This document shows positions 47,613 to 47,895 of a DNA stretch of 64,000 nt, in pieces. The notes beneath the pieces are model-generated. The model did no database searches. It saw only the letters and a list, made by a program, of their open reading frames with translations, and was not told the DNA's origin. The stretch is taken from the NCBI RefSeq assembly GCF_001758225.1, contig NZ_MAST01000012.1:1-64000 (forward strand). The letters run 5' to 3'. Within the stretch, counting starts at the first letter, position 1. Every line of letters starts with the position of its first letter. Source of the stretch: Humibacillus sp. DSM 29435. Lineage in GTDB: Bacteria; Actinomycetota; Actinomycetes; Actinomycetales; Dermatophilaceae. The position numbers and the translations under genes were made by a program.

Positions 47613-47674
47613 GTGTCCGGCCGGACACGGGAAACTCCGCGACGAGGAGGGCCGGGGGTCAGGCCTCGTCGCGG
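47613..47674 (-). promoter_or_regulatory. leuA leader RNA hairpins (candidate attenuator)
   Basis: Between leader peptide and leuA, CCGCGACGAGG (47637-47647) and CCTCGTCGCGG (47664-47674) form a perfect 11-bp stem; the 5' arm in the RNA contains the leader codons for C-R-D-E. A second perfect palindrome GTGTCCGG/CCGGACAC is at 47613-47628. A further CGACGAG near the leuA ribosome site (complement at about 47595-47601) could compete for the same CTCGTCG partner. Alternative folding by ribosome stalling at Leu codons is inferred; no U-tract is visible, so translation-level control is possible. Confidence 0.65.
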
Positions 47675-47703
47675 CAGAGAAGAAGGAGGCTCACCGCACG
47701 CAC
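47659..47703 (-). CDS. leuL: leuA leader peptide (four consecutive Leu codons)
   Basis: Minus-strand ORF of 14 codons, GTG CGT GCG GTG AGC CTC CTT CTT CTC TGC ... GCC TGA, encoding [14 protein letters not shown]. The GTG at 47703 lies exactly 6 bases after a TACGGT -10 box (47710-47715), so the leader itself should be translated from a leaderless mRNA; an internal GTG at 47694 would give [11 protein letters not shown]. Four tandem Leu codons before leuA, followed by a hairpin that uses the codons just after them, is the hallmark of attenuation by leucyl-tRNA level. Confidence 0.82.
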
Positions 47704-47895
47704 ATCAGCACCGTATGCCGCTGAGCCGGTTCGCGTCCACCCCTTGGGACCGCCGCCCGCATCCTGAGACCGGGCCTCCAGCGCCACTGTCTGGCGCTCA
47801 ACCGAACGGGGGGCGTTGGCCGGCAACGGAACCCCGAGTGCCGGGTGGGTCGGTCACCCCGTAGTTGCGGTCGTCGCGGGCCGGCCCGACCGCGC

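Follow-up and report, generated by a model that had tools for sequence, protein, structure and literature searches.

The leader upstream of leuA in the window, the 64,000-nt stretch analysed here, taken from contig C12 of a genome of 5.0 Mb, belongs to the already described actinobacterial LEU element, and its kind is not new: it lies upstream of leuA in an actinobacterium, its leader ORF holds a run of leucine codons and it shares a conserved pseudoknot. The new part is the presence in the same genomes of sister copies with valine and isoleucine codons, placed before an unnamed gene. The mechanism of LEU elements has been in question since the papers of 1999-2005, where the results of codon mutants were ambiguous and a protein ligand was put forward; a genome that carries natural codon-swapped versions of one scaffold allows it to be tested directly. 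On the evidence presented below, the LEU element is probably a leucine-responsive switch read by the ribosome, with an output at the level of translation.

The leuA leader and its conservation

The leader was read base by base on the minus strand (47582-47720), and this reading bears out an earlier note made from the sequence alone, which had described a TACGGT -10 box, a gap of exactly 6 nt and a 14-codon ORF with CTC CTT CTT CTC; the codons are GTG CGT GCG GTG AGC CTC CTT CTT CTC TGC CGC GAC GAG GCC TGA. The perfect 11-bp hairpin of CCGCGACGAGG and CCTCGTCGCGG and the third CGACGAG near the leuA ribosome site are likewise where that note had placed them (Table 1). The downstream gene, which we take to be leuA from its place in published LEU-element loci, is most similar to those of Intrasporangium, Phycicoccus and other members of the same actinobacterial group, and of the 38 genomes searched with LeuA as the query, 35 gave a match along most of the protein.

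Table 1. Features of the leuA leader region and of related loci (numbers are window positions unless a locus is named)
Feature	Position	Strand	Basis or remark
Conserved block GTCTCAGGATGCGGGC, candidate operator	47755-47770	-	upstream of promoter; common to close relatives L003, L004, L005, L032, L195, L196, L206, L208, L211
Weak -35-like GTGGAC	47735-47740	-	sequence; kept in close relatives
-10 box TACGGT, 6 nt ahead of leader start	47710-47715	-	sequence and TAnnnT statistics
Spacer GCTGAT, 6 nt	47704-47709	-	sequence
Leader peptide ORF, leuL type, GTG start, 14 codons and stop	47659-47703	-	sequence; kept in about 100 relatives
Four Leu codons CTC CTT CTT CTC	47677-47688	-	first codon 14 nt before stem
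P1 stem, 5' arm CCGCGACGAGG	47664-47674	-	covariation; fold z -3.89
P1 stem, 3' arm CCTCGTCGCGG	47637-47647	-	covariation; fold z -3.89
P2 pseudoknot, loop strand CCGGCC	47650-47655	-	native vs species-swapped duplex
P2 pseudoknot, downstream strand GGCCGG	47617-47622	-	native vs species-swapped duplex
P0 base stem, 5' strand CUCUGC (last Leu codon and next codon)	47674-47679	-	RNAduplex pairing with 47585-47590; masking accessibility
P0 base stem, 3' strand GCAGAG, adjoining leuA start codon	47585-47590	-	RNAduplex pairing
Third segment CGACGAG, candidate alternative partner (P3) of P1 3' arm	47594-47600	-	sequence, folding; not general
Purine tract GAGAGAG, likely leuA ribosome-binding site	47590-47596	-	sequence; inferred
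leuA, 2-isopropylmalate synthase, 577 aa	45849-47582	-	ORF; ATG at 47582
Neighbour, presumably recO-like gene	43380-44198	-	named by recognition of translation
Neighbour, presumably era-like GTPase gene	48981-49991	-	named by recognition of translation
Second LEU-type element of the same genome, locus L150/L113	G000:C12:361702-361783	-	outside window; leader MSRRLVLLIPCRGESL, then stop; before micro-ORF, then leuB
leuC-type loci	L152-L156, L177, L186, L257, L259, L260		family f16
Micro-ORF loci after V/L/I-type elements	L113, L162, L163, L221-L256, L261-L286, L300-L311		

The same layout of TAnnnT, 6-7 nt, short ORF, stem and loop is found upstream of leuA in about 100 relatives, with the leader pattern M(x)nLLL(L)-x-C/R/S-R-D/G-E/G-A/S-stop and a stem-to-leuA distance usually of 45-75 nt. 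The leucine run is present in essentially all relatives, and its absence from close ones, named beforehand as an observation that would speak against a leucine leader, is not what is seen. A covariance model built from 71 leuA elements, all with Leu-run leaders, matches, within the class, 370 of 394 genomes and, within the family, 113 of 119; phylum-wide it matches only 54 of 396, mostly in the same class with a few families outside. At least three Leu codons occur in 204 of the 212 leuA leaders, and in 201 of these 212 the run opens 14 or 17 nt upstream of the stem. Loops measure about 27-84 nt, against the usual 18 or so, in elements of the Arthrobacter/Kocuria type (L028, L059, L062, L078, L080, L085, L091, L092, L100). 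Some genomes contain two leuA-like genes, each with its own element (L157-L160, L164, L269-L273, L296-L299, L302, L310), the second gene being often about 50% identical to the window's LeuA.

The promoter is arranged in a characteristic way. TAnnnT precedes the start codon by 6-7 nt in 212 of 271 distinct elements, where 5.7 are expected from the shuffled 30 nt upstream, any in-frame ATG or GTG being admitted and all spacings scanned; an SD-like 4-mer is found upstream in only 24 of 285 leaders. A -10 box 6-7 nt before the start and no Shine-Dalgarno sequence are the marks of a leaderless leader, and these comparisons provide strong evidence for such an arrangement in LEU elements. Of the leaderless leucine leader peptide that had been proposed before leuA, the leader and the leucine run are plainly present, and the peptide in the window is very probably leaderless, its start being placed by the conserved TAnnnT spacing. 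A scan with a consensus promoter called no promoter at the window's leader; the GTCTCAGGATGCGGGC block upstream may possibly be an operator for a transcription factor.

RNA structure and access to the leuA ribosome site

Covariation analysis of the 71 sequences revealed four P1 pairs changed on both sides, with 99.9% of cells paired and a score reached by none of 500 shuffles. The window's own P1 stem folds better than 199 of 200 shuffles (z -3.89); the whole 133-nt leader folds no better than its shuffles (z -0.66). The loop of P1 can pair with a segment some 15 nt beyond the stem to form the pseudoknot helix P2, for which native duplexes exceed species-swapped ones (p 1.8e-14) and 40 different helices of at least 6 bp occur among 193 leuA elements. 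Within the class with mixed Val/Leu/Ile codons (V/L/I), P2 reaches at least 6 bp in 68% of native and 30% of swapped pairs, and in the leuC type, which comprises only 10 elements, native pairs are not above swapped ones. Comparison among species thus supports the leader, its codon run, their spacing, P1 and P2.

Two further pairings, each modestly above swapped partners in the duplex test, concern the same target region: P0, between the Leu run and the ribosome site, and P3, between the 3' arm of P1 and CGACGAG (p 0.0014). P0 is a 6-bp stem in the window, and in the same-genus relative L003 it reads CGCUGC:GCAGCG; its own-complement covariation is weak (27/147 vs 65/588, p 0.025), and the pyrimidine-rich Leu codons can pair with any purine-rich ribosome site. 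P3, a 7-bp match in the window, folds spontaneously when the 5' arm is left out (z -2.56), and the occurrence of GACGA or GGCGA close to the start codon goes with the arm variant (50:6 vs 4:7, p 4.5e-4), an association confounded by relatedness; phylogenetically independent pairs, only 8 in number, were uninformative. The third motif is absent near leuA in many species, L003 included.

Access to the leuA ribosome site was modelled by masking the RNA as a ribosome would, in thermodynamic models without pseudoknots. When the Leu run is masked as far as the leading edge of a ribosome stalled at its first codon, the computed unpaired probability of the site rises by a mean of 0.148; 144 of the 180 species show a rise (p 6e-21), and the shuffled control gives +0.032. 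When the spacer alone is shuffled and the ribosome site is kept, the gain is still +0.117, and the effect is therefore attributed mainly to the ribosome-site sequence. In the window's own element the Leu-run mask raises accessibility from 0.31 to 0.65. Replacement of CTC/CTT by other Leu codons exposes the site in silico in 128 of 180 species, and in the window's element such a synonymous swap exposes nothing (0.31 to 0.27). Since Leu-run masking frees the site in most species in silico, the pairing P0 is preferred, and in these models a direct contact between Leu run and ribosome site fits better than a three-segment competition. The earlier reading was right in outline, but it lacked both this contact and the pseudoknot between the loop and the downstream stretch.

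Sister copies with other codons

The covariance model also finds second copies in many genomes, the window's own included. The 285 distinct elements comprise 212 before leuA or a leuA paralog, 10 before leuC, 59 of the leuB group, 3 before an ORF resembling the C-terminal part of LeuA and 1 unassigned. The second element of the window's own genome (Table 1) has TACCGT 7 nt before an ATG, the same P1 and an 8-bp P2 (AGTCAGCG:CGCTGACT). In one family, the Microbacterium-like f16 of the same order, elements with a Leu run stand directly before leuC. Family f18 has elements with LVV or LLV codons, each followed by a short ORF similar to the regulatory domain at the C terminus of LeuA (L165, L166, L292).

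The codons are LLL(L) before leuA or leuC, and mixed Val/Leu/Ile before the micro-ORF and leuB. At least two Val/Ile codons occur in 56 of 59 leaders of the leuB group vs 3 of 222 of the leuA and leuC groups together (Fisher 1.9e-51, with no correction for relatedness). The procedure does not favour the V/I outcome: Leu-run leaders were the source of the model, and L, V and I counted equally when start codons were chosen.

Elements of the leuB group are immediately followed not by leuB itself but by a conserved micro-ORF of about 20-43 aa (for example MKDLMTMSEDAQAARQALQESMDLRDQGHTDD and MYDMYPWNRPEDAEDEAANAVQTALDRRDNGG), with the consensus A[LV]Qxx[LM]DxRDxGG and invariant Q, D, R and D; it matched nothing in Pfam or NCBIfam and is present in 40 of 59 genomes of the family. 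In the window's own genome the micro-ORF and leuB are separated by a terminator-like hairpin that ends in a short T run. Masking of the V/L/I run raises the computed accessibility of the micro-ORF start from 0.454 to 0.546 (31 of 43 elements, p 0.002; control 0.434 to 0.465). The sister copies point to an unnamed microprotein family, which should respond to branched-chain amino acids. No publication describing the leuC or V/L/I copies turned up in a literature search, which was incomplete and leaves absence unproven.

Mechanism and comparison with known systems

In the mechanism considered probable, transcription would start at or beside the leader GTG and a ribosome would begin on the leaderless ORF. 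When leucine is plentiful the ribosome would clear the leader, P1 and P2 would form, and the stretch of Leu codons would pair with the leuA ribosome-binding site through P0, so that leuA would stay low. Under a shortage of charged tRNA-Leu, the ribosome would stall on the first Leu codons with its front edge about at the start of P1, 14 nt on; P1 and P2 could still form, the Leu stretch would be covered and the leuA site exposed. The direction of regulation and the translational rather than Rho-dependent readout are what we infer from this arrangement. It also appears fairly probable that these elements make up a portable family, leaderless, terminator-free and read by the ribosome, in which the sensor codons on one pseudoknot scaffold can be exchanged (LLL(L) at leuA and leuC; V/L/I before the 20-43-aa ORF adjacent to leuB and the three ORFs resembling the LeuA regulatory domain) and codon-specific stalling would expose the ribosome site.

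Other readings of the leader were weighed against this one. That the layout is an accident of sequence, or DNA that is conserved but plays no part in controlling leuA, is scarcely credible: CTY runs are common, the 12-nt CTYCTYCTYCTY occurring 52 times in the genome, and the whole leader is not unusually stable, but the element is conserved, its stem covaries, its promoter spacing is kept and it recurs at other leucine genes, all of which speaks against it. Indeed, the layout is far beyond chance, because it recurs in about 100 relatives and throughout most genomes of the class, with its TAnnnT spacing, a covarying stem and a fold that outdoes shuffles. The competition that the earlier note had envisaged, in which the 3' arm of P1 sits either in P1 or on CGACGAG, hiding the ribosome site, and the position of the ribosome decides, agrees with the 7-bp match, the folding of P3, the duplex test and the tracking of the arm variant; however, accessibility is the same whether the mask imitates a ribosome at the stop codon or one stalled on the first Leu codon (mean difference -0.008, p 0.81, 180 species), and therefore arm competition is not a general switch. 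With the motif missing near leuA in many species, it is conceivable in the window and unlikely as the general explanation.

As for the output, the scan of 47400-48000 found nothing terminator-like, in keeping with the claim that a U-tract terminator is lacking, and because there is no intrinsic terminator the readout is likely to be translational or else Rho-dependent; the suggested translational variant of attenuation holds as the likely form, with Rho as its alternative. In the Rho case the leader would still be read by the ribosome, and Rho would terminate transcription before leuA whenever the leader is untranslated or uncleared. The GC-rich, C-containing spacer would suit this, and Rho has been proposed for terminatorless mycobacterial cys leaders (PMC1262725); it is nevertheless improbable, since in most species some 45-75 nt separate the element from the leuA start, and in silico the ribosome site is altered by the element's structure. 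The proposal of 2005, under which the pseudoknot is the target of a regulatory protein and the Leu codons have only incidental significance, draws on the strong conservation of the pseudoknot and on reported codon mutants without the classical effect (PMC1262725). Against it, the codon run keeps a fixed spacing to P1 in a leaderless ORF, and paralogous copies retain the scaffold and change their codons to V/L/I before another gene, which favours codon reading by the ribosome and makes protein binding a poor candidate, on the evidence of sequence comparison.

Known classes of RNA regulator were considered too. A search of Rfam 15 at gathering and lax thresholds gave no corresponding family, F6 at E 0.02 being a chance match; a T-box or riboswitch was rejected, since no known family of either was matched there, and so was a classical transcription attenuator of the trp/leu type, there being no terminator hairpin with a U run. 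Leader-codon mutants of S. coelicolor leuA, as summarised in PMC1262725, did not show classical attenuation behaviour; they count against the ribosome-read mechanism considered probable here, as do the weak covariation of P0 and the synonymous swap in the window's own element.

The closest counterpart is the LEU element of Seliverstov, Putzer, Gelfand and Lyubetsky (2005; PMC1262725), described with a Leu-run leader, a pseudoknot, a base stem at the ribosome site and a proposed protein ligand. The window's element shares with it the position before leuA, the Leu-rich ORF, the pseudoknot and the lack of a terminator, and the stem between Leu run and ribosome site may be common to both, with 6 bp and an accessibility effect in the window but weak covariation; that paper favoured the protein ligand, and it has neither the leaderless promoter spacing nor the same-genome leuC and V/L/I micro-ORF copies. 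In S. lividans, leuL1 before leuA was found by RNA-seq to be transcribed leaderless and without a typical Rho-independent terminator (PMC8079986; 2021). Its peptide, MRFGLLLLSCRGEGL, is encoded identically by the elements L141, L143 and L318, and it resembles the window's element in being leaderless, with a leucine run and no Rho-independent terminator; however, it is listed there from RNA-seq only, without structure or mechanism (PMC8079986). C. glutamicum and C. diphtheriae also have Leu-run peptides before leuA; these are reported on the basis of RNA-seq or sequence alone, with classical attenuation as the assumed mechanism (PMC4046766, PMC5784534). The Corynebacterium ilvB-II uORF and ilvBNC attenuator likewise place branched-chain amino acid codons in a uORF controlling a gene for these amino acids, but they differ in having an intrinsic terminator/antiterminator and another RNA structure (PMC10272879, PMC11857589). 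Finally, the polycysteine short ORF attenuators of mycobacteria, as described in papers that cite Canestrari 2020, are leaderless ORFs in which a run of codons senses an amino acid, as proposed here for leucine, whereas there the amino acid is cysteine and the genes are others.
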